Shown here: positions 6,067 to 63,228 of the stretch, one piece after another
Layout: each line of letters starts with the position of its first letter
Position numbering within the stretch: the stretch's first letter is position 1
NCBI RefSeq assembly: GCF_029962835.1
Contig: NC_080573.1
Span: 39,301,001-39,365,000 of the forward strand
DNA from: Magnolia sinica
Taxonomy: Eukaryota > Streptophyta > Magnoliopsida > Magnoliales > Magnoliaceae
Direction of reading: 5' to 3'
DNA: 64,000 bases
Position numbers and translations under genes: made by a program
Notes under the pieces: generated by a model
What the model was told of the DNA's origin: nothing
The model's input: only the letters and a program-made list of their open reading frames with translations
The model's database searches: none

Positions 6067-6262
6067 TAGTTACCCAACCTTTGAGGCCAGCCTTCTTCCG
6101 TAGACTCCTTAGTCGCTGACTAGTTCATTTGTTGATATTCAGTTGCTAAAGGTTCTTCCTCTTCTTTTGTTCCTTAATAACACCCGGAATATCGTCTTGA
6201 GAAGTACTAGTCGATCCTATGCAACTAGACGCGGTGTCCATATTGTTACCCTGAATGTCCAC

Positions 6263-15720: not shown

Positions 15721-15831
15721 GTGGAACGGCTCGGTGTTTGGATGAAAAAGTGAGTTTGGTTTGGCTGGTTCTGCATGTCTTGGAGAAATTTCTTAGGTTG
15801 GTTGTATTGTTTTTTTTTAATTATTATTAAA

Positions 15832-17234: not shown

Positions 17235-20200
17235 ATGGCTCATCAAGGTCCACCTCCTCTTTGTTGTACCCTTCAACCCACCAAAATTGGAAAGCCTGAG
17301 GTTGTCCGCCAAACAGCTGCGTTTCACCCAACGGTGTGGGGTGATCACTTCCTTAACTACTCTGGAGACCAAAAGGTAGGAATTTTTTTCACACACGACC
17401 ATGTGATGACATGCGTGAATGACATCCACGCCATTCATCATGTAGACCTATCGGATATGCTTGTGGCCTTAAAATCCTGGCTTTCAACACAGCCAGCATG
17501 ATTGAGCCAGACGTGTACAAGGAGAATGCAGAGTAAAATGTTAAAGAGAAGAAAATCACTGCATGCTGTTATACAATCCATGTACACACAGCATCAGCCT
17601 CATTTTTAGGCTGCAGTACATTCGTGGGGATGCCCATGCGTGAACAATGTGGATGTTAACTATGTTTGCTCGTTTATGGAGAGTATTACTTTTAGCTGCA
17701 CGTGTTGCAGGTGCATGTGCAAATGCATGCACGTTAGATCATGTCTTCACGCGAAATTTCAAAATTCATAATTCAAGAAAAAATAAATAATCTACTAGTA
17801 TTAATTTTTGAGTTTTTGGATGGAATGGATGCAGAAGGTGGATGGATGGACAAGACAGGTTGAAATGCTCAAGGAAGAAGTGAGAAGGATGCTCGTCAAC
17901 ACCCATGGTTCATTGCTAGAAATGAATCTGATTGATGATATTCAACGACTGGGAGTGGCGTATCACTTTGAAAACGAGATAGACGAGGCATTACACCGTA
18001 TATATGGTGAATATACGAAAGTTCAATATGATGATTTGTACGCCGTTGCACTCCGATTCCGACTGCTAAGGCAAGGAGGGTACAATGTGTCTTCTGGTAT
18101 AAGAATCTCTCTCTCTCTCTCTCTGTCTGTCTGTAGGCCTGTTTATGTAAGAAACAACACATGATGTTCTGGACCATTCATCTAAATTCTTCTCCTAGGG
18201 ACGTGGATTGCTTGCTCGCTGGTGGGACCCACGATGATGTTTGTGAGAAATCCACCTCGTCAATCCATTTTTCTAGTTCATGTTAGGACATGAGACTTTT
18301 GCCTGTAGCTCACAGATGATGGGCTTTTTAGATGAATGGTCTGGATCATCATATGCACGCATTCATGCACGACACATGCACCATCACCATCACATACCAT
18401 TTATAGATGACATCTTGAAATTTTGAACGGTGAGGCAGACGTTTTCGGCAAGTTCAAAGATAATGATGGAAACTTCAAAGAAACACTGAGCAGCGATGTG
18501 AGGGGCATGTTAAGCTTATATGAAGCTGCATACTTAAGCATACAAGGAGAAGATATATTAGATGAAGCCATCGTTTTCACTAGTGGCCACCTTAAGACCA
18601 TCGTTGCCCACCTTCATCATCCTCTTGATGCAAAGGTACGGCGGGCCCTAGAGCTGCCCCTTCACAAGCGCATACCAAGGTTGGAGTCAAGGTACTACAT
18701 CTCGCTCTATGAAGAAGACAAATCTCGGACCGATGTGTTGCTTGAGCTAGCAAAATTGGATTTCAATATTCTACAGTCGTTGCACCAGAGAGAGTTGAGT
18801 GACCTTTCAAAGTAAGTTTCATTACCATTTTAGTTTAGTTTTTGGATGGCTTAGGTGAACTAAGAATAAAATGGAGCAGGTATCATCTTAGTTTGTAATG
18901 ATGGTGATTCAATTCGATTATTGTAACTTGACTCAATTGAGCATCCAAACGCAGTGCAACTAGTAAACAAACGAACCATCTGATTAATCCTTACTAATAT
19001 GATATATTGATGTTTTGACGTTTGTTGTAGGTGGTGGAAAGATCTTGGGCTTGCAATCAAATACCCTTTTGCAAGAGATAGATTGGTGGAGGCCTACCTT
19101 TGGATTTTGGGAGTGTACTTTGAGCCTCAGTACACCCGTGCTAGGGCTATACTAACCAAAATATTGAAAATTACGTCAATATTGGATGACATTTACGATG
19201 CATATGCTACATTCGACGAACTTGAAATATTCACTAACGCAGTCTACAGGTTTGATAATGAAAAAAAAAAAGAAAAAGATAGAAAAGTTCCCTGTTTGGA
19301 GGTTTTCTAATTCGACACAACTGTGCATTGTGGCCTATCTGTGCAATCGCGCTATGTGTGAAGCTGAGATGAATGGAATTCCAATCATTCCATCAGTTAG
19401 GCCTCACTTAATTTGCAGGTGACCTGGCTGGCCGTCAATCAAGTGGACCACAATGTGTGAAACCAATAAATAGACAAGAAAGAAGAGGGCCAAACAAAGA
19501 ATTTTACCATAGTTTCTTTCGATCATTACTTGGTGTATAATCTGGAAGCCTCCTTGAAATTTCAATGTTCTATCTCATATCATTAGAGAGGGTGAAATGG
19601 TGGCAGATAGACTATAAACTGGGAAATGGTGTATGTTTTTTAGGCAACTGATTATGGTACAAACACCATTTATTTGAAATGTCAGCGACTTAATTACAAC
19701 TTTCAGGTGGGAACTTGAAGACGCAGAAGGGCTTCCAGATTACATGAAGGCTTGCTATCTCGCACTCCTGAACACGGTGGATGAAATAGAGAGCCAGATG
19801 ATGCCGGATGAAAAATTCTACCGTACAAACTACATAAAAAGAGAAGTATGACATCCAACTCTACTTCATAATATTTCTTACGTTCTTAATGTACATTCCT
19901 TCTACCTGAGCCCTCCCATCTGGATTATTAGAATTGCCAGAAAGTGTGAACATGTTCCTCGTATATTGTCGTCTTTATTTTATGTTTTATTTTTTATTTT
20001 TTGAATTTTCTAAAGGATTTTTGGTTTGATATGGAATGATTAGATGAAGATGTTCGTCCAGTCCTACATGGATGAAGCCAAATGGGTCAACAGAAAGCAC
20101 GTGCCTACGTTACGAGAGCATCTTGATGTCTCGCTACTCAGTTGTGGCTACCCACTACTAACCGGTGTTGCTTATGTTGGCATGGGAAATTTGGCAAGCA

Positions 20201-22518
20201 AGGAGGTCTTCGATTGGCTGAATACCCATCCTAAGTTTGTTATGGATTTATCTATTGTATGCCGACTCGTGGATGACATCGCAGGCCATCACGTAAGAAT
20301 ATATACTTTACTATGAATTTTGAGTGAATTGAGCAGTAACCTATGAACATTTTTCCCTGCCAAAAATATGCACAGGGATTCCCCACCACCACCAATCATA
20401 GATTAGTGACTCATCTTAGTTAGTTTGGCACCATGAGTCAGCTGAGTCATGACTTGGAATCATGACCAAACATTTTGGTCTGAGTTGATGAGTAGGGGAA
20501 GGAAGATGTTTGTTACATAACGTACCAACTCGTTACATGTAAGTTTGAGTTCGTAGTTCAATGACAAGCAGAGCGTGTGTCAACATTGAGGTCTTGGGTG
20601 CGAGCTCAGCCTACACATGAAAACTATAGTGCATCTGCTTGCCTCACAGTGCAGTTACTTGGTGATTTGGATGCATAGGAAATGAAAACTTCTCTTGAGA
20701 TGGTGTAGCCACCATGAGGAAATGTCGGACTTCATTTTCCTGACCCCCTATGGAATAATAGATTATAGAGGCATATTTATTGCTCTCAGAATTCGCACAC
20801 TTAACCTTCCACTCTGATACCATGTTAAATAACCATTTGCTCTAAAAGATTGAGCCACCAGAGGATGGTGTATCAATGTATATCAAGAGACTTTAAAACG
20901 TGGGTCATCCATATGCAGGCATAACCTCATTACGGAAGCCATGCATGTAAGTCAATCCTGACCTATCACACCGAGTGTCCCACTTATATGTTGTATTTGG
21001 ACTATAAAAGCTTTCTTCTTTTCTTGCAATCCACTACATAACAACTAATTTGACAATCAAGGTCGTCTCTTGATTGGCACTTAAAAAGAGAGTTTATTTC
21101 AGTTGATATTGATGAAGTTTGAAAATATTGACCCTACATGGTACATGGGAATTGGTTCCCCCACCAAATAACTGTAAACCAGTAGGTTGCAAATGGGTAT
21201 TCCGTATAAAACGTAAAGTTGATTGGTCTGTTGATAGTTTTAAAGCAAGGCTTGTCGCTAAAGGTTATCATTAGCATCCTGGATTGGACTACAAGGAAAC
21301 CTTTAGCCCCGTTGTGAAGCCCGCTACTATTCGCACTGTTTTGACAGTTGCTGTTATGCAAGGATGGCCCTCGAGATAACTTGATGTCAACAATGCATTT
21401 CTGCATGGCGAGTTGACTAAAACCATATACATGGTCCAACCCCCAGGATTCAAAGATGCCTCAAAACCTAACCATGTTTGCAGGTTAAATAAGGTTATCT
21501 ATGAACTCAAACAGGCTCCTCAAGCCTGGTACTCGGTACTAAGATTGGCAATCATGAATCTTGGTTTTCTAAATTCGAAAGCGGACTCCTCCTTATTCAT
21601 CTATCGCCACAATTCTATCTTGTGCTATTTATTGGTATATGTGGATGATCTGGTTATCACTAGTAGTGACATGCGCTTTGTGTCTCATATCATTGACCAA
21701 CTTGGAGTTCGATTATCTTTAAAGGACATGGGCCAACTTCATTTTTTCTTGGGTATGGAAGTCATTTCTACTCCATCAGGTCTCTTCCTCTCCCAACACA
21801 AATATATTCGGGACCTCCTATCTAAAACCAACATAACAGGTGCTAAAGAAGTTTCTACTCCACTGTCCACAAGCACAGCTCTAAAGTTAGTTGATGGTAC
21901 AACATCTTTTGATAGTACTGAGTTTCGAAGTGTCATTGGCGGTCTTCAATATTTGTCTCTCACCCGTCCAGACATTTGTTTCTCCGTAAATAAACTCTCA
22001 CAGTTTATGCACCGCCCCACAATAACTCATTGGGCAGCTACAAAGAGACTCCTCCGCTACTTGAAGCAAACTATCTTTCATGGCATCCACATCACCAAAA
22101 ATTCCAGTTTTGCTCTGACAATAAGCTCTGATACCATGATGAAGTTTGAAAATATTGACCCTACGTTTCTTATTGTTATCTTTGAAGAATATGTAAGGAA
22201 AGCTAAAAATAAGCGTAACTGTTACAAAAACTTTGACTCATGATTTACCATGTTCAGCCTAATAATCAGGTAGCTGTTACAAGCAGATGTTCAGCCTAAT
22301 AATCAGCTAAGAGTGATCTTTTCCTTGATTTGAGGAGTCCTCCGTTATAGATATAATAGTAATTATATATTGAAGATTTTGGTAAGGATAAAAAATAATA
22401 CTGATAACCGATGACTTATATAAACTATGGTATGATACATATTACTGTTAACTACAATGATATGATGTCATTTTTTGAGTGGCAAGTTTTCAGAAGGGCT
22501 TACTAGGTTGGCCATAGC

Positions 22519-30264: not shown

Positions 30265-30900
30265 TATCGGTGCCGATTATCCAGGCTGACACCGATTATC
30301 AACCCTGATTATTGGTGCCAATTATCAACCCTGATTACCAATGCATATTATTGATTCCGATTATCAATCGATTCTGATTGTCGTGGCCGATTGCCTGTTA
30401 ACGATCGAGGCCGATTATCGTGACTGATTGTCGGTTTTCAATTGTCATGACCGATTTGTCGATTTCGATTGTCGTGGTCGATTGCTGATTTCGAATGACT
30501 TGACCGATTACCAATTAGCGATCGAGGCCATTTATCATTACCGATTGCTGATTCCGATTGACGTGACCGATTTGCCGATTCCGATTATTGACCGATTTCG
30601 ATTGTCGTGGCCGATTACCTATTAGCGATCGAGGCCGATTATCATGACTGATTGTCGATTTTCGATTAACGTGACTGATTTACCGATTCTGATTATCGAT
30701 CGATTCCGATTGTCGTGGTCGATTGCCTATTAGCGATCGAGGCCGATTATCGTGACTGATTGTCGATTTTTAATTAATGTGACCGATTTGCCGATTCCGA
30801 TTGTCGTGACTGATTTGCCGATCGAGGTTGAGTATCGAGGCCATTTCCGAGTGTCGATTCCAATTGTTGAGGCCGATTCCGATTGTCGAGGCCCATTGTG
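30265..30900. repeat. Minisatellite built on CCGATTGTCGTG / GATCGAGGCCGATTATC
   Basis: A dense array of 'ccgatt..cgtg' words forms higher-order units of roughly 105-110 bases. Compare 30,598-30,705 with 30,706-30,810; both contain 'attagcgatcgaggccgatt' followed by 'gtgactgattgtcgatttt'. The array has no counterpart in the inverted LTR copy, so it expanded in this copy or was lost in the other. Open frames here (for example 30,730-31,101 on the minus strand) are products of the repeat. Confidence 0.85.
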
Positions 30901-33660: not shown

Positions 33661-36600
33661 GGTAGTCTGACTTACCACGTGCGAGCGCGATAGCTCGAGA
33701 GTTCCGGCAGCATGATCCCTCGAGGTTTAGTGGTGACCCTGACCCTTCTGCCGCCGAGGCATGGTGCACTAAGATTGCAAGGATATTTGACACTATGCAG
33801 TGTCCTACGGATCAGAGAGTTTCCCTTGTGACCTATCACCTTCAGGGCGAGGCCCGTCATTGGTGGTCATCCGTATCTAGGATGGTAGGGCCCCAGTTTG
33901 TTTGGACCTGGGATGAATTTGTGGTCCGTTTTGACTAGAAATTCTTCCCCGAGCATGTTCAGATCTAAAGGGCGATCAAGTTTAAGACCCTAGTTCAGGG
34001 AGATTTGACCGTATCTTAGTATGAGGCCCATTTCTTAGCCTTGTCTAAATTTGCTCCTCATCTCACCAGTGATGAGAAGATGAGAGCCCGTCATTTTGTG
34101 ACTGGCTTGCGTCTTGCCCTTCACAGATGTGTAGTAGGGCATTTTTGGAGACATTCGACTAAGTTGTGCATCAAGCACTGGTTTATGAGGAGGACTGGAT
34201 TATGACCCAGAGATCGAGAGAGCAGAGTTTCGGTGGAGACCGAAAGAGGAGATCACCAGCCGGCAGTTCCAAGTAGCACCATCAACAGAGATGGAGAGGC
34301 AGATCAGGGTATCGACAGCCTGCGGCTCAGTCAGTAGCTTCTTCATTATCATCAGCACCGCCAGTTTCTTCGTCTTCTGGCCCCTTTTCCGGTGTTTTCT
34401 TTGGTTGTAGACAGGCCGAACATCGGAGGCGTGAGTGCCCTCTCCCCATACAGCAGCAGAGGCCACCGCAGTTGGCTCCTCCTCATCCTCCTCAGCAGAA
34501 GCAGAGAGCACAACCTCCACCAGCCGCTCATAGGGCTCCTCCTCAGCAGCAAAGCCAGCCAGGCAGACCTCCTTGGCAGAGATAGCAGCACCAGCGAAGG
34601 GGATATCTGTATGTCCAGTCCCTGGGTCGAGTGTGTATCATAGCCCAGTAGGCACAGACTCAGGACCCCCAGTCTTCCGGTTTGATTCCTCTACCAGCTC
34701 AAGGCCGATTTTATTCTGCGCAACAGGCATCAAACCAGGACCCGCAATCATTGACAGGTGGAGTCGTTGAGGGTATTCTTCTTATTTTTGCTTGCGTTGC
34801 TCATGTTTTATTTGATTCGGGTGCTTCCCATTCTTTTGTAGTCGAGCAATTTTGTCAATCAACTGGTATTCCATCAGAGTCTGTGTCTGAGGCCTTAGCC
34901 GTTTCGACTCCCATGGGAAAGTCCGTTGTCTTGACCCGTTGCTGTCCTTCTTGCCCCGTGTTAGTAAGCAAGAAGTTCCTTCCTGCCAATATGTTCGTGA
35001 TGCCGCTGTTAGGCTTTGATGTTATTCTGGGTATGCACTGGCTTATGGAGTATCGTGCCATCTTGGACTATACCGTGAGGACAATCACGTTCCACATTCC
35101 AGGCTTACCAGTATTCCAGTTTATCGTCGAGCCCAGAGGAGAGTCGTTATCTAGTTTCTTAGCTTCTGTCATTGAGGATTTTGTGACAGAGTGTATTGAG
35201 TAGCTGCCAGTTGTTTACGAATACCCGGATGTGTTCCACGAGATACCGGGTTTGCCGCTGCGTCAAGAGGTGGAGTTTCAAATTGATCTGGTGCCCGGTA
35301 CCGCTCCTATCTCGAAGGCCCCCTACCGGATGGAAGCATTGGAGTTGAGGGAACTGCAGGAGCAGTTAGATGAGCTTCAGGAGTTAGGTTTCATTCATCT
35401 CAGTAGTTCGCCTTGGGGAACCCTTGTATTGTTTGTGAAGAAGAAGGATGGTTTGTTGCGGTTCTGTGTGGACTATCGTGAGCTCAACAAAGTCACCATC
35501 AAGAACCGATACCCACTTCCCCGTATTGATGATCTGTTCGATCAATTGTAGGTTGCACAGTATTTTTCCAAGATAGACTTACACTCCGGTTACCATTAGA
35601 TTCGGATCCAAGAGGAGGACATTTCGAAGATAGCTTTCCAGACACGCTATGGTCACTTTGAGTTCCTGGTCATGTCGTTCGCACTGACTAATGCACCTGC
35701 TGTATTCATGCAGCTGATGAACGAGGTCTTTCAATCGTTCCTCGACCAGTTCGTACTAGTATTCATTGATGAAATTCTTATATATTCGAGAACCCAGGAA
35801 GACCATGTTGAGTACTTGCAGATTATGTAGGAGACCCTCCATGCCCACTAGTTATATGCGAAGCTGGAGAAGTGTGAGTTTTGGCAAGAGGAGGTGAAGT
35901 TCTTCGGTCACGTGGTGACGAGGGAGGGTGTCGCTGTGGACCCCTCGAAGGTTGATGCAGTGCATCAGTGGGGCCAGCCCACAAACTCGTCCAAGATTCA
36001 CAATTTTCTTAGTCTAGCGGGGTATTATCGAGGATTTATCGAGGGTTTCTCCCGTATTGCAGTATCGCTGACCCAGTTGACGCGAAAGGGCGTCGAGTTC
36101 GTCTGGAGTAACACCTGTGAGGAGACATTTACAGAGTTGAAGGACCGCCTCACGTCTGCTCCTGTTCTCACTCTTCCTGATGGGAGTGAGAGTTTTGTTG
36201 TTTTCATTGATGCCTTTAGAGTTAGCTTGGGTGCTGTACTGATGCAGCATGGGAAGCCAGTGGCGTACACCTCGGCCAGCTCAAGGTCCACCACTCATGA
36301 TTTGGAGCTTGTATCAGTTGTCTTCACACTGAAGGTGTGGAGGCATTATCTATATAGGGTCAGGTTCGAGCTCTTCTCAGATCATAAGAGCTTGAAGTAT
36401 CTATTTTCACAGTCCGAGTTGAACCTGCGTCAGAGGCGATGGATGGAGCTGTTGAAGGAATATGATTTTGACCTTCAGTACCACCCAGGCAAGGCGAACG
36501 TGGTGGCGGACGCGCTCAGCCATCAGCAACGAGGCCTAGTGGCACAAATGATGGTGCGTGAGTGACAGATGCTCGAGGATGTTTCAGTGTTTGACTTTGA

Positions 36601-38175
36601 GTTTGGTCTGCAGTCTTCCATTGTTCAGCTTTCGAGCTTGTCGATTCAGCCTTCTTTGGTGGCTAGGGTGATTAAAGCTCAGCAGACGGACGATTCACTT
36701 CAGGAGTTTCGAGCAGAGGCCTCATTCGTGGAGCAGTCAAATCGGCAGATTGGTTCCAATGGTGGATTATGCTTTAGAGGCCGATTGTATGTCTCGGACG
36801 TGCCAAAGTTGCGTCATGATTTGATGACCGAGGCACACCGATCGAGACTTACTATTCACCTGGGCTCCACGAAGATGTATCATGATATGAGGAGGCAGTA
36901 TTTTTTGAAGGGGATAAAGCGCCAAATCACTAGTTTTGTAGCCAAGTGTGACACATGCCAGCGTGTCAAGGCTGATCACCAGAGACCCCCTAGTCCCTTG
37001 CAGTCATTGAGCATTCCAGAGTGGAAGTGGGAGCATGTATCGATGGACTTCATCGCAGGTTTTTCGAGGACTCAGCGTGGTCACGATACCATCTAGGTTA
37101 TCATCGATCATCTAATGAAGTCGGTTCATTTTATTCCAGTATGTGCTTCCTGGTCTACGGTCCAGCTTACAAAGGTGTTCATTAAGGAGATAGTGAGACT
37201 GCACGGCGTCCCAGTTTCGATCGTTTCAGACTGAGACTCCAGATTTACGTCTCCGTTTTGGAGGAGTTTCCAGTAGGCGTTGGGGGTCACTTTGTGTCTC
37301 AGCACCGTTTATCATCCGCAGACAGATGGGCAGACCAAAAGGCCTTGAGGATATGCTCAGAGCTTGTGTGATTAACTTTGCGAACAGTTGGGATGATCAC
37401 ATGCACCTCGCCGAGTTCGCGTACAACAATATCTATCAGGCGATTATTAGCATGGCTCCTTTTGAGGCACTTTATAGTAGACCGTGTAGATCTCTTAGTT
37501 GTTGGACCGAGGTTGGAGAGCGTCGTCTCTTAGGTCCTGAGCTTGTGTAGCAGATGTCAGAGGCTATTAATGTTATCAGGCAGAGGATGCACATAGCTCA
37601 TAGCCGGCAAAAGAGTTTTGTTGATTGTCGGCATCGACCCCTCGAGTTCGTAGTCAAGGACATAGTATATCTCAAGGTCTCGCCTATGAAGGACGTGGTT
37701 CGCTTTGGTGTGAAGGGCAAGCTCACCCTGAGATTTATTATGCCTTTTGAGATTATTGAGTGCGTGGGTGTTGTGGCTTATAGGCTTGCCTTACCTCCTG
37801 ATTTGTCTGTGATCCATAACGTGTTCCATGTCTCTATGTTACGTAAATGTGCGTCAGACACTATTTTCGTGATTAATTGGCAGTCACTCGAGGTCCGTAA
37901 GGATGCTTCCTACATTGAGTAGCTAATTCGTATTCTTGATCGAAAGGAGCAGGTCCTCAGGACCACGGTCATTCCCTTGGTGAAGGTGCAATGGGGTCAT
38001 CATTTGGAGGCCGAGATTAGGGAGCGTTATCCCCATTTGTTCAATTATTGATTGCTTGTATTACCTTCTCTTGTGATTGATGATTGCGATATATATACAT
38101 GATGATGTTATGTATTTTATTATTCCGGTTTTGTCAATTTCGAAGATGAAATTTCTTTGTTGGTGGGGAGGATTA
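33661..38175 (+). mobile_element. Ty3/gypsy element, 5'-truncated, broken
   Basis: Parts in order: gag from about 33,690 (FDTMQCPTDQRVSLVTYHL, WW), a knuckle-like segment near 34,390-34,440, aspartic protease (VLFDSGASHSFV, about 34,800-34,840), reverse transcriptase (35,320-35,900; [31 protein letters not shown]), RNase H (36,130-36,540; [11 protein letters not shown]) and integrase (36,800-37,550; H..H..C..C knuckle with CDTCQRVKADHQRP). A C-terminal LDRKEQVLR..VPLVKV-like tail reaches 38,050. The last part resembles the chromovirus Tekay/Del type. The 5' LTR and start of gag are missing. The coding region has many interruptions, so it is a fossil. A polypurine tract precedes the 3' LTR at 38,176. 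Confidence 0.88.
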
Positions 38176-49933: not shown

Positions 49934-50013
49934 ACCCAAACCCTTAGCTTCTTCTCACCACATCTCATTCATATATCTTAACTAGTTTAGTACCTTTTCT
50001 CGCACTACCATTC

Positions 50014-50430
50014 ATGGCTTCAAAAACTTGCTTCTTAATTATATGTGTGCTCATTTGTGTGTCACTGGGCCACTTGTTGGACACTCCTGAGCCGTCAGCC
50101 CCTCCACCAATGCCGACTATCCGGATCCTGCCGAAACCCACATTGCCAAGGTTGCCTCCTTTGCCTGAGATGCCGACTCTACCTATGTCAACGTTACCAC
50201 CATTGCCGAGTGCCCGATTGCCACCTTTGCCGGTCGTGCCTACACTCCCAAAGGCAACATTGCCACCATTACCCACTACCCAATTACCACCTCTGCCTGT
50301 CATGCCCAATCTGCCGAAGCCTACGTTACTGCCACTGCCTGCCATCCCTTCCATTCCAACAATCCCAACCATTCCCTCCTTCCCAACCAACCCTACACTC
50401 CCTTCCCTCTCTCCACCTCCTTCAAACTAG
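50014..50430 (+). CDS. Small secreted proline-rich protein (PELPK-like), intact
   Basis: The 138-residue ORF starts MASKTCFLIICVLICVSLGH, a clear signal peptide with a cut likely around residues 19-25. The mature part is almost wholly Pro/Leu/Thr repeats: LPPLP..LPPLPVVPTLPK, TLPPLPTTQLPPLPV, PTIPTIPSFPTNPTLPSL, ending SPPPSN. It has no other domain. Such proteins are hydroxyproline-rich cell-wall proteins of the PELPK type in broad terms; the exact PELPK motif is absent, so the name is by analogy. It has a TATA box at 49,926, no intron, and a 3' UTR with an AATAAA near 50,680. The inverted paralogue at 15,620-15,228 is broken, making this the surviving copy. The glycine-rich frame on the opposite strand is a shadow. 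Confidence 0.8.
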   Translation: MASKTCFLIICVLICVSLGHLLDTPEPSAPPPMPTIRILPKPTLPRLPPLPEMPTLPMSTLPPLPSARLPPLPVVPTLPKATLPPLPTTQLPPLPVMPNLPKPTLLPLPAIPSIPTIPTIPSFPTNPTLPSLSPPPSN

Positions 50431-51475: not shown

Positions 51476-52119
51476 GGATCTTCCAATTTCTTAATCACGC
51501 ATGGCAAATATTTAACTCAAAATTAAACTCTACCAAATTTCGATGGATCATAAACCAGATTAGATTAGATCTTAAATCAAATAGTAAGATTAGATCGTAA
51601 TATTGGTATATTTGTGGATGATCGACGGACAGTGTTTTATGTTTAATTTCAATTCCAAAAAAAAAAAAGAGTGTTCAAATAGAGTTCAAAATTGTTCCTG
51701 ATTATGAAACTATGTTCACCAGACTGAAATTTTTGTAAGAAGCAGATTTTCAATGGTATTTTTGTTCAGATTTTGATTTAATCAGTTCCAAACGTATTTG
51801 GGTAAGTTTCTTATATCCCGAGAAAAAAAAAAAACCAGCATAAGTTATTATCCCATATTCGGAGTTTACACCTTTGATTTTTAGATTGGCCATGAATTTT
51901 TATAAAAAAAATTTTCGTTACTCTAATTAATCTCGAATAATGATGATAATAATCATTTGTTCAACCCTTATTTTCAATAGCCGTTATAGCAGAATCTAGC
52001 ATGCATAGTTCTGACACTACAACAAAAACTGGATTAGCCCACAATTTATGTGGCTAATTTACCGGTTCTAATTAAAATGGGCGTCGATTAGCGATCGGGT
52101 ATATATACCAGTACCAAAA

Positions 52120-52170
52120 GCCCTGACCCTGTTTTTCTCCCCTCTCCCGACTCTCTCCCTCTCACCGCCC

Positions 52171-52226
<56 letters not shown>

Positions 52227-52330
52227 CAGCTTTCTTTTTGTTTGAAAAGAAGCAACGCCGTCAGATCTGGCGATCTGTGATCGTTACCCCTGAAAACGTC
52301 GCTCGATGCCACTGCACCTAAACGCGTTTG
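52120..52330 (+). promoter_or_regulatory. CT-rich leader/5' UTR-like segment at the left end of the CACTA element
   Basis: About 100 bases inside the left end there is a long (CT)n tract (52,164-52,222), then a GC-richer stretch with ATGs and GATCGG|TACTC, and a TCAG|GTGG splice-like site at 52,510. This resembles a captured plant promoter, 5' UTR and first intron. No protein family is recognisable. Confidence 0.4.
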
Positions 52331-53966
52331 CTATGTCCGCTGCACTCGATCGGTACTCTCTCTCCCTCTCTCTCTGCACCTCATTCCTCTCATGCATCTC
52401 CCGATTTCTCCAAATCTCCCAAAACCCTAGAGATTTTAGTTGATTTCTCTAAATCTTCTAAAACCTTATTCACATTCCAACTCTACAGCTGCCTGAACCG
52501 AAGAGACTGGTCAGGTGGTTTTTTTCCTCTCTCTTTTAATCACTAATGGATTTATTTTTTTACTTCACTGGATTTGGGATTTTACAGGCCACTTATTTCT
52601 TACACAAAGCATGCTTGTATAGAATTTGAGCTATAAGCATGTCACATGTTTGACGAAATTCCTGAAACAAATGTGTGTAATTTTTATGTTTGTTTTTCTT
52701 AATGGTTTGGTAGGTCCTTTTTTTTTAATGGCTTGGTAGGTCTTTTTTTAATGGTTTTGTTTTCATGTTTTGTATATCTGTGCTTGTACGGTACAAACAT
52801 GCATCTCTTTTATTCTCCCATCATGCTGAAAACACTTGCCCCAGTGAGGAGAAACAATCAGGCCAGAAACTATAGAGGGCTAAGGCTCTTCAGGACCTGC
52901 TACAGGTGAGGAGGCACATCGTTATGCCTACACCATGGACCAGAGCACGATTACACAAGGAGACCACAGACATAAAACTTTAGCTATGAAATCATGAGAA
53001 TTTCTGTTTGGTACATGATTGACAAAGCATGATCATACAACCAACCCCAAAATGGTGGGATGAGGCTAGGATGATGATGATGGTGATGTAAATAAATAAA
53101 GATAAAGAAATTCAAACAAAGATTAGTGACTAACCAGGGAGTATTGGTGTGAAAATGGAAAATCTCCAACTGTCCTATTTTGGCAAACAAATATCTGTGA
53201 ATCAGAGATTAGGATTGTTCAATCAATATAATCTTGGGATTGTGACTTGGCAGTAGTGAACTACACAATATACTTGTTTTGGTTAAGTTAAGCTTGTTTT
53301 GGTTTTTGCAGGGCATAATGAAGTGCATAGAAGGAATTTTTTTATTTTTTTATTTTCATTCATCAATTGCTTGAAGGTGGTGTAAAATATTCGTTTCTTT
53401 GGTGAATGATTTTATGCTGCTCTGCCTTTCAGGAACAACCCACTCCGAGTTTTTTGTATCTTTGATTTTAACTTGTCAATGTCATTGTCAATTTAATACA
53501 AAATTCATGTTCACCTGCAGTGTTGATGAGCAGGTAGCCAAGGACATATAACTGCTAGATTCCATTGCTGAGAAGCAACCCCAAATCTTCTCTGAAGAAT
53601 GCAAGTATTATTGAAGTAAAGAGTTTGATTTTTTTCACCGGAGTTTGAAGATGAGATCATAATGCTGGTTGAGTTACTTGATGCCTCTGCCTTTTGGATG
53701 GATTGAAGATTTTTGGGGTCCTAATGCATTTGGTTTATTTTGACTTTTGTTACTCAATATTTATTGGATGTTGCAGGTTATTAGCACATGGGATGGCCAA
53801 AAATGAGTGATGCCCCATTGGTTTGACCTGGAAATTTTATTATAACTAACCTTTTCAAGTAATTGGATGATTCATATGATCCAGTAACATTTGTTGTTTC
53901 ATGTCTACTTGTTGAGGCAAGGCTTTTAAGATTAAATGGTTGTAGCTTGATTGGGAAGTAATGGGA

Positions 53967-54062
53967 TTTTGGTTGTTAAGCTATTAGCGGCTCTTACTTT
54001 TTTGGTTGGAGAGCATTGTGATTACGGTATATCTGCATCCAACATGACTGTTCATTTTCTGA
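53967..54062 (+). repeat. 96-bp direct repeat within the CACTA element (copy 1)
   Basis: About 95% identical to 60,086-60,181 (five substitutions by hand count), 6.1 kb apart and in the same orientation. Both read VVKLLAALTFLVGEH in one frame. This may be a captured exon duplicated later, or a repeat inserted twice. Confidence 0.85.
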
Positions 54063-54508
54063 TACATATGTATCTCACCTTATATTTGATCACTTTAGTC
54101 TTTTTTCTTTTTTCTTTGGGTGAAATTGGGCAAGTTTGAGTTGAAGCTTATTAAGTGGTTTGGAGTGTGTTGAAATGCATTGAAGCAATTGAAAATGCTG
54201 CTTAGTTCTCCTGTTTAATCACTGTCAACTGCAAATTGAATTCATCTCATCCATTCGTCTTGTTTGTTTACGGGATACATAGTTTTGCTAATTATGTGGA
54301 CTTAACAATTTTAAGTAAATGGGTTGGGCTTGGATTGAGCCCTAGTCAACTTGTTCTACCCCTATAAGTTATTAATGGGTTGAGTTGGATTTAGCCCAGC
54401 TGATCTGATGGTGGCTTATATCTCTGTAATTTCTTCATTTTACATGTTCTTGCCTTGAATTGAAATCTCATGTCACTAAAATTTGCTTGATTCCGTGGAA
54501 ATCTTTAG

Positions 54509-54554
54509 GAACCCTGAAGAGATCCCATGGGGTACGACTGGTACTGAGTATGTT
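54509..54554 (+). pseudogene. Captured fragment: cytosolic GAPDH exon
   Basis: After a TTTAG acceptor the sequence reads (R)NPEEIPWGTTGTEYV, the conserved block of plant glyceraldehyde-3-phosphate dehydrogenase (FGFRNPEEIPWGE.GA.YVVESTG). The acceptor lies at the arginine, where I recall GAPC genes having an intron. The match ends before VESTG, so the exon is truncated at its 3' side. It is a fragment of a glycolytic enzyme with no function on its own. Confidence 0.7.
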
Positions 54555-54706
54555 GCAAAAAGGAGGTCCGTAGCAAATAATGATGAGGGATTGCTATGTG
54601 TGCAGAAGACCATGTTATGAATGAGCCGTTCTAAATCCTGTTTTCCCAGACAGTTCTTCAAACTTTTTATTCCACTTGCTAATGTTCCTTGATACAAATC
54701 ATGCAG

Positions 54707-54780
54707 TCCCTATATTTCTATATGGAGCAGTAGATGAGCAAGCAAGGACCCTTGATTCAACCAGTAGAATTGCTAGATAG
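54707..54780 (+). pseudogene. Captured fragment: formiminotransferase-like exon
   Basis: After an ATGCAG acceptor it reads (V)PIFLYGAVDEQARTLDS, resembling VP.FLYGAA.EEGRTLDSIRRELGYF of plant formiminotransferase/cyclodeaminase-like proteins. The match decays after TLDS and the frame then meets a stop at the exon's end. The assignment rests on a short block and is less certain than its neighbours. Confidence 0.5.
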
Positions 54781-54789
54781 GTGAGTATG

Positions 54790-54911
54790 TATGCACTCTC
54801 CTTGTCGCTGGTGGAGTCTGATCCAAATGCTCCTTTTGGTTATGGCTTGTGTTTTTTGAACTTAGCAATGGATGGATTCACGAATGCAACTCAGGATTCC
54901 ATAACTGCAAG
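54790..54911 (+). pseudogene. Captured fragment: UDP-galactose/UDP-glucose transporter exon
   Basis: Frame reading: ESDPNAPFGYGLCFLNLAMD then GFTNATQDSITAR, followed by a GTTTGT donor. This is nearly the conserved sequence of the plant UTR1/UTR3 (SLC35B1-type) nucleotide-sugar transporters (..PNAPLGYGLCFLNLAFDGFTNATQDSITARYPK). The intact protein would carry UDP-galactose/glucose across the ER membrane. Only this one exon is present, following the formiminotransferase-like piece directly. Confidence 0.85.
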
Positions 54912-55311
54912 GTTTGTCAGTTCATGAGTTGATTGTTTCTCCTCTTGTTGGTGAACTTGTGCTTTCTGAAAATATTATCTTTCTGAAACAGAACATTATT
55001 TACTTCGATCTTGCATCTAACTTCAAAATTTCTTTCTCCTTTTCTTGTTACTATCAGAATTTTCTATTCATACTTATCAAAGGAAAATAAAAATATTTTT
55101 TCAGAGATGATGAAGCTCTTTAATGTTGCATACCATTCCTAAATGGCACATGACGCATACCATTACTATCAGAATTTGTTTTTATTCCTGAACTTTATCT
55201 TGCAGTTTTTGGAATGGGTTGATGAAGTAACAAACGGATGACAAAAAACATCACTGTGGGGCCTTGGTAGGTTTCCACCATTGACATCATTATCCCCACT
55301 GTTTCTACAGT

Positions 55312-55671
55312 GTGGTCTACTTGAGCTGGATATGCTTTATTTTGGATCCGTCATTATCCCCAATGTGGGGCCTTGGTAGGTTTCCACCATGGACATCCAA
55401 GATTTTCTGTTTCTTTGCTTTACCTCTGTCTCTCTTTTCATTTTTCTATTTTCGATGGCAAGAGCTACAAATGTATAAGATACTTAGAATTGTAATGTAT
55501 ATCTTCCTTTTCTCTCTCTTCCCATCTGAGCCCATCGACCTGAAAAAGGTGAAAGAGCTTCCACCAAATCTCTTGTGCAAAGGGGCAATGAATCGACAAA
55601 TGATCTCATGTTTCTGCATCCCGATGGCACACGATGCACCCATTCAAAATGATCAGCTTCTTTTCCCTTAA
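55312..55671 (+). other. 119-codon open frame in the CACTA element, unrecognised
   Basis: The second half (PSEPIDLKKVKELPPNLLCK, GAMNRQMISCFCIPMAHDAP) is compositionally protein-like and could be a captured exon. The first half is translation of a copy of the dispersed 'gtggggccttggtaggtttccacca' repeat and is not real coding sequence. No family recognised. Confidence 0.3.
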
Positions 55672-56336
55672 GTTTGCTTGGTAAAAAGATTTATATCGAC
55701 AAAATACCTTGTAGGCAGATCTACAACAAAATTCACATATGTATATTCTACCCTCAACCATTCTCTCAAACTGGAGTGTCACTGAAGATGACTGAGTTTC
55801 TTTTGTCTGGAATTTTTTTTTCTTCTTCTTTTCTCTGGAAAAAATCTGTGATCTGATTGAAAGATGAAATGTCAGCTTTTTGTTTTCACAGATTTCTAAA
55901 TAGCTTTTCTACATGATTAACTTGGAACTGGAAAAGTGGAGTTTATTTCTCACTTGGAAAAATTAAAAAGATTTAAAAGCATATTTTGAAGACCGAAAAT
56001 TTCAATTCTTCAAAAAAAGAAGAAGTAATAATAATTAAAAAAATGAAAGAAAGAAAGAAAAATAAAAAATAAAAAACTGAACATCTCAATGAGCCTTGAT
56101 GAACAAAAAAAGGTTGAGAGAAGAAAACAGAAACCCTTAGCAGTTTACACAAATATATAATTAATTCCCAATACATGAGCGCTTTCTCAATGGCGACATG
56201 GAATTTTGAAACTCTCCATCTTTCTCCATTGCTGCCCTCAAATGACCTTAACCAGTTTATAACCTTTTCCTCCTTTTCATTCTCCCATGCATTGAGGTCT
56301 TTTGCAATGCTATCAAGAACAGGACCTTAATAGTAA

Positions 56337-56775
56337 CTCATTACTATTTCTTTTCATTATTCACCACCAGCACCACTATCATGGCCTTTTTCCAGCTATT
56401 CATGGTTGACTACATGATTTGATTGGGAAATATTTGATAATCAGCTGCCACCTGACATAAACTCTCTTCCTTTACCTTGGCTTGGGACCAGCTGGCATGT
56501 TGCCATCTGGCAAAGTTCTGGATAATGTTCACCCTTGTTAGGTTAAAAAAAGCTAATGCTCACTTTCGTTACGACTCCTTAATGTTTCTTTCCATTAATC
56601 ACCATCATCACTATCATCACAGCCTTTCCGAGCTATTCAGGGTTGGCATCATGGTTTGCTTGGGAAAATTTTGATGACCAGCTGCCCATCTGATATCAGC
56701 CCTCCTTTACCTTGGCTTGGTACCAGCTAGCATGTTGCTACTGGGTGAAATTCTGGATTATGTTTACTTTTGATA
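56337..56775. repeat. Two-unit tandem duplication, about 200 bp each
   Basis: 56,337-56,540 and 56,578-56,775 share 'tttctttccatta.tcaccatca', 'ccttt(t)ccgagctattca', 'gattgggaaa..tttgat', 'cctttaccttggcttgg(g/t)acca' and 'gctggcatgttgcc'. They are diverged, with no ORF preserved across both. Confidence 0.8.
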
Positions 56776-58405
56776 CATTAAAAACATGAACTGCATAAAG
56801 TAAGGAAAAAAAGAAAAGAAAATACATCTATAGCCTTTTAGATACTTTTTTTTTTTTTTTTGGTTTCTATTTTTCCTACTTGTTGAAAGAAATATTTAAA
56901 TCACGAATAAGAAAAGGAAAATTAATTTATCGATAAGAAAGAAATACTAAATTTTTTTCTAGTTGCTAATTAGATAAATTTTGCTTGATATGTCCAAATA
57001 AGTTGATCAGATCTAAGCATATTTTGCTGTTAAAAATATAAAAAAAGGAAAAGAAAAAAGCAAGCATATTATTATTTGGTATCTCTCTTCACAAGTTTCA
57101 GGTTGATCTTTGTATCTATGATTTTTCCCATTCATGTTGTTTCTGCTATTTATAGTAGTCGCTGCTATTTGTTTGGTGGCTTTATTAATTTCTATTTTGT
57201 TCTTTATTCTGCAGCGAATGCAGAGCTGTATTGCAAAATTGGTTTCTCTAATAAATTTCTCCTGTTGAAAAATTAGAATTCCTGTTTTTATTTTTTTATT
57301 CTTGCAGTGTGTATCTGCTGATGAAGACAACTAGGCTGGGTAACTATAAAAACTGATAAATATTTTTTTTTTTTTTTTGGGGGTTCTTGTAGTATTTTTT
57401 TTTTCCTTTCCTCTGATTGTTTGTTATGATTCCTCTGAGTACCTATTTTCTGCTTACACTTGCTAGCTGAGGAGCACCTTCTTAAGATCCTAGCTAGACA
57501 TCCATCAGTCAGGTCCCACCATGAACATTCTGTGGTTCCAATGCAGGTGCCAATGCTTGGGTATTGCATCATTTTGAATGAAATTCTCACCAAATGCTTT
57601 AGTTAATCAGTTCTATCATGACTAAAATTCAGTCTCATGCATCAATCAAAATGAACTATTCCTAGGTTCTAAATGTATTTTTCAGTCTCTCTATCTACAA
57701 CTAAAAATCAGGCTAATCAAAATGTAACGCTTTTGTCATGATTGATTGGTAAAAGTTTTGTGAGTAGGTGCCTGCCTGACATCAATGATACAATCTTGGA
57801 CTATGTGGTGCATTGTTACTAGGCAGGGTTGAATAAAATATCTAAATACCAAGCATCTTTTTTCAACTAGATCACCTTTTTTCAAAAAATACCTATGGTG
57901 TTGTTGCTTATATCTTAGTTATCATCTCTCAGAAAATACACGTAGCAAAACCTGACCGGTCACATGCTGGGCACTACCAAAGATAATGTATTCCAAAGAA
58001 ACCAACGAATGGATAATCCTTGCAAATGATTGGGAGACTCCTTCAGGGCGGCAATAATCCAGACAATCTGTTGCTTGCTGGGTTCAGCCCTATCAGGTAC
58101 CAGGCCTAAGATTTCAAGCCTGGGCATTGTCCTCAAGTCATGGCAAAAACTGTAGAATTTTGGTTTTCTAATTGTTTTTCTGCAAATCAGTTAGTGATTT
58201 TTTCCATATTTTGTAACTCTTTCTGCAAAAAAACAGTAGAGTGATTTAGGTGATCTCTTGTTTTAATTGCAAACAGTTTTGCACTGCAACATGTGGTTAG
58301 ATGTAATCTTTTAATTATTTATCAATACAGACGCACATTCACTTATGCTGCCCACATATCTATGCTTGGCCCTGGGGGGTAGCCCTGGGGGGTAATAGTG
58401 GTGGT

Positions 58406-58522
58406 TGCACCGACGAGAACACAAGCTGTGAGAGGTGGGTCGCTCTCGGAGAGTGCACGAAAAACCCAGAGTATATGGTGGGATCTGCAGAGGTTCTTGG
58501 TGCCTGTAGGAGGAGTTGCAAG
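58406..58522 (+). pseudogene. Captured fragment: ShKT domain, as in plant prolyl 4-hydroxylases
   Basis: The frame reads CTDENTSCERWVALGEC then TKNPEYMVGSAEVLGACRRS and CK, followed by a GTGTGT donor. The spacing C..(D)..C..W...GEC..NP.YM......G.CR.SC is that of the ShKT domain at the C-terminus of plant prolyl 4-hydroxylases. Five of the six cysteines are present; the last would lie in the next exon. It is the only part of that gene seen. Confidence 0.8.
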
Positions 58523-58824
58523 GTGTGTTAGCTGACTGTTTTGGTCATGTTAGCAGTTGTCGTAATCTCACTGGGGTTGCTACTGGTGGTGATCTCTTCT
58601 AGTGAGTCTGGTTATTTAAGCACCTAAGATGTTCTTCCTTATTTCTAGTCTTCTATCATTGCTGACTTTTTCCTTATTTCACTTTTCATTATAACTGACA
58701 GTTCTTCCTTATTTTTACACTGCCAGTGGGTACGCTTTTTGGAAGATGGGTCTGTGAATTACATAGTTGGTAATGGATCTTATTTCTAGTCTTCTATCAT
58801 TGCTGACTTTTCCTGAATATCCAG

Positions 58825-58941
58825 TTTATAAAAATATTTCAAGCAACAGGAGCGAAGCAACCTGACTATCTAGTTATTACTGATGATGTTGATTCATACC
58901 TTGCCATTGAAGTACAGCCCCTTGAGGACTGGAACAGGAAG
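58825..58941 (+). pseudogene. Captured fragment: AIR9-like repeat exon
   Basis: Between a TCCAG acceptor and an AAG|GTATTT donor the 117-nt exon reads FQATGAKQPDYLVITDDVDS and YLAIEVQPLEDWNRK without a stop. The pattern GA..P.Y..T.DDVD..LA.E..P.(D)D...K resembles the Ig-like A9 repeats of the microtubule-associated protein AIR9. The exon itself is well supported; the family name is moderate to low confidence. Confidence 0.55.
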
Positions 58942-59190
58942 GTATTTCACTTGCACACATTTAGTGGATAAAACTCCCTCCCTAGTGATTTTCTATTCTC
59001 GTTTTCAAAATGTTTCTTGTGGTTAGCTGTTTAATTTACATTTGGAACTTCAAACATTGTTACAGTGAGGCAAATGCATTTTAGTGGCTGACCACAAGGG
59101 TATTTTGATGCAAACATCAATTGGGCCCCCAGTACCACCACTCCTAGAAGAATAAGTCATGTATCCTTGCCATTTTGTTTTGTTTTGCAG

Positions 59191-59567
59191 GTCCAGTGGA
59201 GCTTACTGCATGTAAGATGATGAGAACTGAAGAACGAGGAAATGAAAATCTGGAAGAGGCTTTACCTTTAAGCAATGAAATGAAAAATTTGCCTTCACAT
59301 CTTGGTATGCCAACATCCATACAGCCTTGTTCTTAATAAGAAGAAATGGTTGGTCAGATAAAGTGATGAAATTAGAAAGTGTCTGAATTTTCTTTTGATC
59401 TCTTTCATATTGATTTTTTCATGTTTACATTCATTTGGAGTTTCTTAGTTCAATTCAACCACCTGGAAAATCAACATGCTTTCTTTCATCATTGCTCTAT
59501 CAGATTCTGGCAAGGATGAGTACCACCCATTCATTGCTTTTGAAAATCAAAATATGGCAGAAAGCAG
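59191..59567 (+). pseudogene. Captured pair of in-phase exons, protein unknown
   Basis: Exon 59,191-59,304 (VELTACKMMRTEERGNENLE then EALPLSNEMKNLPSHL) ends at CTTG|GTATGC. A second, 59,504-59,567 (SGKDEYHPFIAFENQNMAES), lies between CAG and CAG|GTTT. The first leaves phase 1 and the second starts by completing it, so they join without a frame change and without stops. That strongly suggests two neighbouring exons of one host gene with their intron retained. I do not recognise the protein. Confidence 0.55.
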
Positions 59568-60085
59568 GTTTTTTTTTTTTTTTTTTGGGTTAGCTTGTTA
59601 GTACAACATCCACTCTGTCTATCGATGTTGTCAGATCACTTCTATTTTCTTGCTGTGTATGTTGAGATTCCTGAAAATATATTGTTCTAAACATTTAAAC
59701 TCTTTTAACATGTCGATAGTTTGATTCTGCTTGCATATCAGACTAGATTGCTTAGGGTATTCCAACAATGAATTTACTGTTGGATTCTACAGTTTTCCAT
59801 TTGCTGATGATTCCTTAGGGTATTCCATGTACAGTTTTTAAGATTCTATCCAAAGATGCTAGTTGAGGATCCAAGCTACTATTGTTGGATATATTATGTT
59901 ATGAATTATGATGCCCCATTGAACACAACTTTTTTTTTCTTGGCCAAGAAACTATATGGGTGGGGCCCTTATGGTGATCTAGAAAGTTCATTTTCCCATG
60001 CAGCAAAGGTGTGAAATCTCAAAAAATGTTTACTTCTTTGCTTTCTTTTGATTGATTTTTAGTTTCTTTTAATCGTGTTCTTACT

Positions 60086-60181
60086 TTTTGGTTGTTAAGC
60101 TATTAGCAGCTCTTACTTTTTTGGTTGGAGAGCATTCTGATTACAGTATATCCGCATCCAACATGATTGTTCATTTTCTGA
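60086..60181 (+). repeat. 96-bp direct repeat within the CACTA element (copy 2)
   Basis: Partner of 53,967-54,062. Next to it a shorter word, 'aatctcaaaaaatgtttact' followed by 'tctttgctttcttttg', also occurs twice (about 60,016-60,051 and 60,183-60,218). Confidence 0.85.
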
Positions 60182-60733
60182 AATCTCAAAAAATGTTTAC
60201 TTCTTTGCTTTCTTTTGGTTGGATTGATGGCTTTCTTCTATATTTCCCAAAAACCAAGGAATTGTTACTAATTTCCACTGTTTTACTACTAATGACCTCC
60301 ATCCATTTCCTCTAAAACTTGTAGAAATTTAGTTAATTAAGTCTTCTTCCTTTTTTGTATGGACTTTAGTAAGTTGAATTTGCAATTAGTATGGCTTGCT
60401 AAACAAGAACTTAAAATTTCTTTTTAAAAAAAAAAAAAAAAAAAGTGGAAACTAATCCCATTTGCTTGGAAACAAATTGTAGCTGCAATCATTGTAATAG
60501 TACAGGTATTGTTGTCTCCTGCTACCAAGCAAATTGTTAATTCTAATGTTTTGTTTCTCAATTCAAGTGCTTCAAATGTGAGGAAATCGCTTCTTTAAAT
60601 CTGAAGCATTTTCAATGTGGATTTATATCTTACATAATTTTTTTCTTGGACCAGGAGATTGTCAATATTTCTCTTTTATGCGTAATTTAAGTCTGGAATT
60701 CATCTGCTAACCCATTCATATATGCTTGTTCAG

Positions 60734-60797
60734 GACATACGCATGTGGCTGAGGCACTGAAAGTACTGCTTCACATATTCTTTACTATGCCTTGGAC
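60734..60797 (+). pseudogene. Captured fragment: sterol 3-beta-glucosyltransferase exon (UGT80 type)
   Basis: Between TTCAG and a GTAAGT donor the exon reads (G)HTHVAEALKVLLHIFFTMPW T, almost the conserved GHTHVAEALKVPLHIFFTMPWTPT block of plant UGT80 sterol glucosyltransferases. Splice phase and length (64 nt) fit a complete small exon. The intact enzyme would glucosylate membrane sterols. No other exon of it is seen. Confidence 0.85.
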
Positions 60798-61769
60798 GTA
60801 AGTCTTGTTTTTTGAGTAGAAATCCAATACTGTTAAAATTATTAGAGTCACCACCTTATCATTATATTTCACTTGCATTCTTCAAGTGCCTTTTCTATAT
60901 GCCATATTGTTCATTTGTCACTGTCACATTTTTAGAAAACATGATAAAGCAAACAGAAACTGCAGTTTTTTGCTTCAGATAATGTTATATTCTTTTGCTT
61001 TGCACTTACAAGACTTTTCCATTCTAACCCGAGGTGCATTTGAGGTCACAACAAGGGCCATGGAACATCATCTGTCTTTGAATCTTAGGATATTGACAAA
61101 AAATCATCTAATGTTGGAATCCTAGATGTTAAATGTTCATTCAAGACTTGGAATTATTTCACCTTATTTGTATCAAAGGCTATAAATTTCTTCTAAATAG
61201 AGAGAAGCAAATTGTCTTCAAATTGCATCTCACATATTATCTATCTAGTCGATAGGATATTAAGCTAAGGTAACACACTTTTAATGATCTCATATACATT
61301 AGAGCGCATTTAGGACTTGCTATATTTGCATTGAGCAAAATGGTGATTGTGCTCGATTGGATCACTTGGTCAACTGAGCTCACTTGCCATTGTTAAAGTC
61401 CCTTGATATACATTGGCATATTATCTATCTACTTTTTTATTATTCTTTTTCCCTGTGCACAGGATTTTAAGGAATTGTGCCTAAATTTAAGCCTACAACC
61501 AAGCACTTCAGCCTTTTGACGCTACTCGAGATGGGAGTACCATATAGAGGATTTTTTTAAATTATTTAAGACCATTTTCAATTTATTGTAATAAATATTA
61601 TATATATTTTTTATTGTGAAGTAATATAGATTTTGTTTAATATTTAGTTTAAATTGTATTGCAACATTTTTTATGTTTCAAATATTTAAAAAAATACAGG
61701 TTTTAATTGAATTATATATATAAAAAAAAAAATTTACCAGCCTATGCTAGAGCCACTTAAATCTGTAGA

Positions 61770-62060
61770 GGAACCTTTACCGGCGCTTGTACAGATCTTT
61801 GTCGCCGCTTTTCCGTATTTAAAATTGTCTAGAAGCCAACTTTAGCGGCGCTTAGATTAGCTTATACCGGCGCTTTCTTGCCAGCGCTTATAGCAGCAGA
61901 AAAAGCGCCGCTGAAGCCAGAGAGACCGCCGCAACAGCTTTGCGGCGCTTTGAGTAGCGCCGGGAAAAATTGCTTAGTGCTGGGAAAACTCTTATTGACA
62001 TACGCTTCTGGCAGCGCTTGTCTAGCACTAGTAAAAGAATATGCCGGCATTTTTAGGGGG
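61770..62060. repeat. GC-rich subterminal repeat array at the right end of the CACTA element
   Basis: About ten copies of (C/G)CGGCGCTT or its complement AGCGCCG(C/G) occur on both strands within 290 bases. They stand out from the AT-rich DNA on their left. Subterminal arrays of short motifs bind the TNPA-type protein in En/Spm elements. The left end lacks a comparable array. Confidence 0.8.
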
Positions 62061-62108
62061 TTTTACTAGTGGTTTTAGCCACTGGTAAAAGTCCTTTGTT
62101 TTGTAGTG

Positions 62109-63228
62109 TGATCACTAGAGCACTTAGCATGTGCACCCCATTAGGCAAAATGAACTAAAAAGGAAAAAAAAAAAAAACTTTCAAACTCTCAGAGAGTGTG
62201 ATTGATGATATTTGCAATACCCTGCCATGACCAATTATGTAGAGTTACTTGTGATATGTACGAATATGCATGAAGTATTCAAAAATCTGTAAATATACAT
62301 GGAGGAAATTTCTCGATAAATGTAGCCAGGACGTATCAGGTGGTGCCGTGTACTACTTGAGAGGCCGATGGAGAAACGATCATGCTCGAACAATTATATG
62401 ATAGGTGACAAGAGGAGAAGCAAAAGAAGCTAGAACATGGGCATAATCTAGAGAAAAGTAATAGAAAATGGTTATGAAAATCGTCCGAAAGTGAGAAATA
62501 TTTAGAATAAATGAATTAAAGCTATAAATGGAAGAGGAATGAGATGAAGCAAAGAGTCTCGTATTAACTCAAACAAACCAAATATATCTTTCAATTATCC
62601 TATCGATTTAAATTCCATAGTGTAATATTTTACTTACCTTGTTAAGCAAATTTCACTTATTAGTGTAATGTTTACTTTCCAAGCTTATCGTTTTACATTC
62701 CGTAGTGTAATCCGTAGCAGTAACTGAGTAGTTGGTAAGCTTTAGCTGTAATTTGAGTTTATACCCATTCGTTGGATTCAGTTCATCCATTGAAAAGGTG
62801 TTCATCAGCTGTTCTTCATGATCGATTGTAGGATCTCTTTTCCATTTTATTCTGATATGTATTGAAAAGTCCTTTCATACAGAAGGCAAAGGTGCAACCC
62901 ATCATTAAAGGATGAACCTCACCCTCTGAATATCACTTGATTCGATTTTACACAGTAAGCGAGTGGCTAAATAGGCGACCGATTTCTTTAAATTTCGATC
63001 ATACACTATGTATCTGCCTTTTTTGGCGCTTGAGGTCATTGTTGTTCAGTTTAAATTGAAGGTACAATTTCAATTCTATCGCGCCCGTGCACCTATTCCA
63101 AAAAACAATGGCAAACAATTTTCTGGCGTGCCCGGTGGGACCCTGTCTCTAAATTACCAGTATAGTATTGCCAATAATGAATAGAAGTGCCCTTGTTGTC
63201 GAGGTTGAGCCCTCTACACCAACCGCAC
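62109..63228. other. Intergenic or old retroelement sequence
   Basis: No ORF is convincing. Near 63,118-63,145 the phrase 'tctggcgtgcccggtgggac' resembles the region just after the 5' LTR in some gypsy Tat/Ogre-type elements. The preceding 400 bases might therefore be LTR. I cannot confirm the ends. Confidence 0.3.

Follow-up and report, generated by a model that had tools for sequence, protein, structure and literature searches.

Several CACTA transposons are known to have taken up pieces of host genes. In soybean, Tgm-Express1, a CACTA element at wp, carries fragments of five unrelated host genes, exons together with introns, and these fragments are spliced into chimeric transcripts, according to the excerpted report (PMC1947982). 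Excerpts on maize describe Pack-CACTAs that contain coding DNA from several donor loci (PMC8903248), and acquisition by Pack-TYPE elements has been proposed to proceed through neighbouring insertions and re-mobilisation (PMC8903248; reviewed in PMC13317346, likewise excerpted); CACTA elements of Chenopodium are described, in the passages concerned, as having such host-derived fragments in their 5' region (PMC8978399). Here we describe a CACTA element of 10,094 bp that occupies positions 52015-62108, forward strand, of a 64,000-nucleotide window of the Magnolia sinica genome (C1:39301001-39365000 of a 1.84-Gb assembly of 127 contigs), the whole genome having been searched for its copies and donors. 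We consider it very probable that this element is a single member of a large family of non-autonomous Pack-CACTAs, in which gene fragments replace the transposase, the promoter is retained and mobilisation would occur in trans.

The element belongs to a multi-donor Pack-CACTA family, and that family is of a known kind. Judged by its sequence, the family appears to resemble Tgm-Express1 as that element is described in part, both being CACTAs that carry exon and intron fragments of unrelated host genes; unlike the element of that description, the Magnolia family has at least 39 other copies of its left end, mosaics of modules and a conserved left TATA box (PMC1947982). With Pack-CACTA and other Pack-TYPE elements it shares a non-autonomous CACTA structure holding coding DNA from multiple loci (PMC8903248, PMC13317346), whereas a shared promoter and leader and an excess of sense pieces across copies set it apart from the Pack-CACTA passages, which give orientation for neighbouring insertions only. 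The Chenopodium CACTAs have also captured host gene fragments, but the examples in the passages concerned differ in having kept a transposase domain, with the fragments upstream of it and one host gene per element (PMC8978399). An earlier note on this stretch of DNA had held the number of donors in a single element to be unusual, a claim weakened by the five donors of Tgm-Express1 and the several loci of maize Pack-CACTAs, as given in the excerpts (PMC1947982, PMC8903248). A partial literature search, pairing CACTA with Liriodendron or with a Magnolia genome assembly, returned no report of such a family.

The borders of the element can be read directly, as the earlier note had done: the left end, CACTACAACAAAAAC, begins at 52015, the right end, TTTTGTAGTG, finishes at 62108, and the triplet TGA adjoins each of them. 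Terminal inverted repeats together with a 3-bp target-site duplication place the element in the CACTA superfamily (CMC). Its structural parts are the following.

52015-62108, forward strand: non-autonomous CACTA element, recognised by its ends, its target-site duplication and the recurrence of its left end
52012-52014: left target-site duplication, TGA, read at the element border
62109-62111: right target-site duplication, TGA, read at the element border
52015-52028, forward strand: left terminal inverted repeat, aligned in 21 left ends (pairwise diversity 0.027)
62095-62108, reverse strand: right terminal inverted repeat, read at the right border
52097-52109, forward strand: TATA-box-like core promoter, GGGTATATATACC
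52110-52223, forward strand: pyrimidine-rich leader ending in (CT)n
52224-54644, forward strand: left module, common to six copies
61429-62060, forward strand: right subterminal region with (C/G)CGGCGCT motifs

The subterminal array that had been proposed appears, in this copy, on the right side alone: (C/G)CGGCGCT occurs six times in the last 1 kb of the element and not once in the first 1 kb; in five other copies the counts are 1, 1, 0, 1 and 1 on the left and 6, 7, 0, 1 and 5 on the right. The element also contains a 96-bp direct repeat, whose copies at 53967-54062 and 60086-60181 agree at 95% and are separated by 6.1 kb. Outside the window, about 4.6 kb downstream of the element (about 66697-66777; L031:4798-4878), there is another right CACTA terminus with the same orientation, which resembles the element's own over 86 bp at 87% in the right-end query and over 82 aligned positions at 89% in a second comparison; the 5.4 kb read contained no left end to match it.

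At least 39 further places in the genome carry the left end, a lower bound because a 286-bp query returned 58 rows with the best 40 of 120 candidates scored. Thirty-eight of these copies match from the first base, and five match the whole query, at 82-93%; the termini are thus shared well beyond this locus. A 371-bp query with the right end gave 40 rows including the element itself (best 40 of 88 candidates scored), and hence 39 further rows among the matches listed; besides the element and the downstream terminus, these comprise a partial match (79% over 198 bp), the rest lying at or below 75%. Detailed comparison of 20 of the 39 left-end copies showed that five (L009, L011, L012, L027 and L028) possess a TTGTAGTG end and a target-site duplication matching the left side, the duplicated triplets being AGA, ACA, AGA, GCT and TAA. 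We did not count a further five (L014, L016, L017, L022 and L026), in which TAGTG precedes a matching triplet and that terminus is absent. Because ends, target-site duplications and modules recur at independent loci, the features of the element exceed what chance would produce.

Inspection of the interiors revealed modules that reappear in different combinations among copies. The first 2.6 kb are common to L009, L010, L011, L015, L016 and L019 at about 93-95%; L021 has 52015-54007, 55372-57940, 60034-60902 and 61335-61795 in common with the element; and L029, on C2, keeps the order of the element over 52175-59937 (94.8%), after which its similarity resumes at 61429. Left similarity ends at about 205-210 bp, at the (CT)n run of the leader, in 8 of the 20 copies (L017, L018, L020 and L022 to L026), which otherwise give only short or right-end matches to the element. 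Five junctions in L029, L021 and L012 were viewed by eye: the break in L029 falls within a T-rich run that both sides have, and at most a few bases are shared at the remaining junctions. Further donors are held by other copies (P450, galactosyltransferase, esterase, Med26 and RsmB/F). A GSK3-like piece in L009, for which a PDB search returned only designed proteins and Pfam nothing, was not accepted, its name being our own presumption. A genome-wide set of such elements would allow the gain, loss and exchange of captured exons to be traced copy by copy.

For searches of coding content we assembled a non-redundant set of the element and 19 copies, about 46 kb of distinct DNA, with five of the 19 copies delimited by target-site duplications and the others by similarity; L026 was excluded, as its end could not be set. 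Open reading frames (ORFs) of at least 40 amino acids numbered 258 in sense and 250 in antisense, an entropy filter removed 9 and 5 to leave 249 and 245, and the 150 longest of each strand were scanned against Pfam. No transposase, in agreement with the earlier note, was present among the families listed for these ORFs (25 of 31 in sense, 24 of 24 in antisense). Host coding DNA inside, with no transposase match among the families listed, makes the element a Pack-CACTA. The pieces recognised within it are as follows.

54465-54570, forward strand: GAPDH-like exon with the preceding intron end, from PDB matches and a C1 counterpart
54611-54777, forward strand: FTCD-type intron end and exon start, with a counterpart in a C1 gene
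58399-58531, forward strand: prolyl 4-hydroxylase-like ShK exon to its stop codon (Pfam ShK, 7.1e-5)
58537-58819, forward strand: piece in common with a C8 locus and, over 58632-58819, with a transposase-bearing element on C6
58835-58945, forward strand: presumed AIR9-like exon
59191-59310, forward strand: exon that we take to be MATE-like transporter sequence, having lost 99 bp, in frame, by comparison with L035
60641-60892, forward strand: exon presumably of the UGT80 family, with parts of both flanking introns and a C3 counterpart

Six donors had been named in the earlier note, and four of them have gene-like counterparts elsewhere in the genome. For the GAPDH-like piece, GAPDH accounts for 22 of the 23 PDB rows (best E value 0.015), and 54465-54531 (67 bp) is 95.5% identical to an exon at C1:42973480 that was named GAPDH-like by eye and is itself apparently imperfect. 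The FTCD piece matches C1:1765236 at 87% over 54611-54768 (158 bp), across an intron end and exon start with the acceptor kept, and the gene at that place (C1:1763800-1766900) has FTCD_N matches at 1.3e-37 and 2.5e-9. The ShK exon (133 bp) matches C14:33770320 at 82%, where the reading frame gives 2OG-FeII_Oxy_3 (3.1e-6) and ShK (0.0012) in Pfam. The UGT80-like piece matches C3:110680273 at 76% over 255 aligned positions with identical acceptor and donor borders, the window piece itself giving a Pfam match to Glyco_transf_28 only at 0.033. Intron sequence and splice borders are retained in the FTCD and UGT80-like pieces, and the assertion that splice borders are mostly kept stands where it could be tested, in these two. 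The AIR9-like piece, so named by the earlier note and presumably correctly, has a single outside match (58849-58914, 66 bp, 92% to C15:25510810), with no intact parent demonstrated; no region of the element could be matched to the sixth donor, a UDP-sugar transporter. For the MATE-like piece, Pfam gave no match. The description of a CACTA carrying exons of several unrelated host genes accordingly holds for four of the six donors, and it extends to the whole family.

Two of these pieces recur in other settings. A 356-bp stretch that includes the FTCD piece (54621-54976) is found by itself, at 94-96%, in 12 other places where its borders are identical; a thirteenth place has a border 3 bp shorter. 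At the C8 locus, a transposase lies about 6 kb upstream of the stretch resembling 58537-58819, the borders of the C8 element not being established. The possibility that C8 is an empty site lacking the ShK exon was ruled out: 37 bp are left there, among them the final 13 bp of the exon, and the locus is therefore a derivative.

Examination of the genome with the PF02992 profile yielded 1,669 candidates, the best 150 of which were scored and listed, all over the cut-off. At C6:71717185-71733436, left and right ends lie 16.25 kb apart, each flanked by ACC; between them are Transpos_assoc (1.3e-21) and Transposase_21 (7.1e-105) domains, together with sequence like 58632-58819 (93%) and 61429-61875 (74%) of the window element. 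This transposase-bearing CACTA is a plausible helper for the family. A locus at C9:27695500-27713400, with a transposase 8 kb before a right end, was rejected; C6 is preferred because no CACTACAA left end occurs in the C9 stretch read. The earlier note had proposed to look for an autonomous CACTA with the same ends; the C6 relative bears a transposase, and its left end is alike over the first 14 bp only.

Alignment of the left ends of the element and the 20 fetched copies (n = 21) shows a TATA box in every one, in the variants TATATATA (13), TATAAATA (7) and TATAAATC (1). Diversity is 0.067 over the 13-bp TATA region and 0.063 over its 8-bp core versus 0.115 and 0.131 in flanking sequence, values compared without a significance test, and the promoter-like left end of the earlier description is borne out. 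The left end of the C6 transposase-bearing element, viewed by eye, has a similar layout, in which a TATA-like stretch is joined by runs of CT and by what may be a splice donor; on account of this likeness, we infer that the promoter is native to the CACTA, and transcription would begin from this end. The earlier note supposed that the element might give a chimeric spliced transcript or siRNAs against several housekeeping genes.

The single orientation claimed for the captured pieces is upheld in the main: most Pfam matches are on the strand read from the TATA box onward, with one antisense match, XRN_M, standing against it. At E < 1e-3, six donors were found in sense among the 25 of 31 families listed, namely galactosyltransferase (Gal-bind_lectin and Galactosyl_T, L013), p450, DUF676, Med26, RsmB/F and ShK. 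In a comparison that does not depend on annotation, T over A skew is positive in 63 of 74 500-bp tiles, and in 61 after masking of A or T runs, as against 52 of 103 tiles (53 masked) in window positions 1-51500 and 21 of 37 unmasked tiles beyond the ends of six copies; all 10 elements having tiles show a positive mean, tiles from one element not being independent. What stands out in the finding, with the caveats below, is that sense pieces prevail across the family behind a promoter that has been retained. A partial literature search found little on the orientation of captured fragments, which does not show its absence in print.

The arrangement is best explained by copies that keep the CACTA ends and a short TATA promoter and pyrimidine-rich leader just inside the left end, with genomic fragments of unrelated host genes (exons with intron parts) sitting, mostly in sense, in place of the transposase genes. 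These fragments were probably gained and lost through error-prone repair during transposition and re-mobilisation, and the family would have spread in trans by means of transposase-bearing relatives. Several observations weigh against this account. Among the matches listed, no near-full right end at another place is more than 75% like the element's; 15 of the 20 fetched copies, by the test described above, show no clean right end with a matching duplication; a right terminus cannot be recognised in L029, the closest copy; and the number of right-end motifs varies, falling to 0 in L012 and 1 in L027. The C6 element shares just those 14 bp of the left end, carries, some 2.4 kb short of its right end, an additional CACTA-type left end with TAG in front of it, and was read except for about 5.1 kb of its middle. 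A chimeric host gene or pseudogene cluster with coincidentally CACTA-like ends would likewise present one-directional exon-like pieces downstream of a TATA box, but it is already contradicted by shared ends with different target-site duplications at other places (5 of 20 clean), and the counterparts of the pieces sit on C3, on C14 or megabases away on C1, so that we find it highly improbable; the pieces are not parts of genuine adjacent genes.

Whether direction carries meaning is a closer matter. The one-way orientation could be chance or a search artefact and the element an inert mosaic of captured DNA, a possibility we view as doubtful. In its favour, it was in reading the sense strand that the GAPDH, FTCD and UGT80 pieces first came to notice, the antisense ORFs also matched XRN_M (4.8e-5), Atrophin-1 (1.6e-4) and DUF3915 (5.9e-4) at E < 1e-3, XRN_M was not located among 20 antisense ORFs rescanned, and splice-motif counts, which proved uninformative, show no consistent strand difference. 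Against it, ORF sets of equal size yield six sense donors versus one antisense (three if Atrophin-1 and DUF3915 are kept, which we discounted because their names point to probable low complexity, their members not being located), and the masked skew departs from that of the neighbouring DNA. Skew and direction could alternatively be inherited from CACTA sequence, such as introns and untranslated parts of an old transposase gene, rather than from captured genes. Favouring this explanation, T over A skew in C6 is similar to that of the family (0.09 in one of the stretches examined and 0.16 in the other) and absent from the FTCD donor gene (0.002), and C6 and the window element have internal pieces in common, yet the Pfam domains of unrelated host genes themselves run sense and genomic counterparts match across introns, and we judge it unlikely. 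Returning to the non-autonomous Pack-CACTA family, one might tentatively suppose that its members mimic genes, with a retained CACTA promoter and leader ahead of sense-oriented, splice-competent host exons that are kept because antisense pieces would invite silencing. If so, antisense pieces would pair with host messenger RNA while sense copies pass as genes, and the direction of its captured exons would be something for which the transposon has been selected. The family makes this question of sense direction testable.

Elsewhere in the window, long antisense ORFs at 209-8343 presumably belong to a LINE-type retrotransposon (long interspersed nuclear element), and one end of this stretch is duplicated at 95% (164-996 and 1822-2654). 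ORFs at 12176-14306, 21380-22243 and 34652-37096 read like pieces of Ty1-copia and Ty3-gypsy retrotransposons, and one at 18411-18815 like a terpene synthase exon, names that we again presume. A proline-rich ORF (49948-50430) lies 1.6 kb upstream of the CACTA element and has inverted, 80-82% similar stretches within 15150-15822, and a tandem array at 30353-30806 consists of about four copies of a 108-bp unit.

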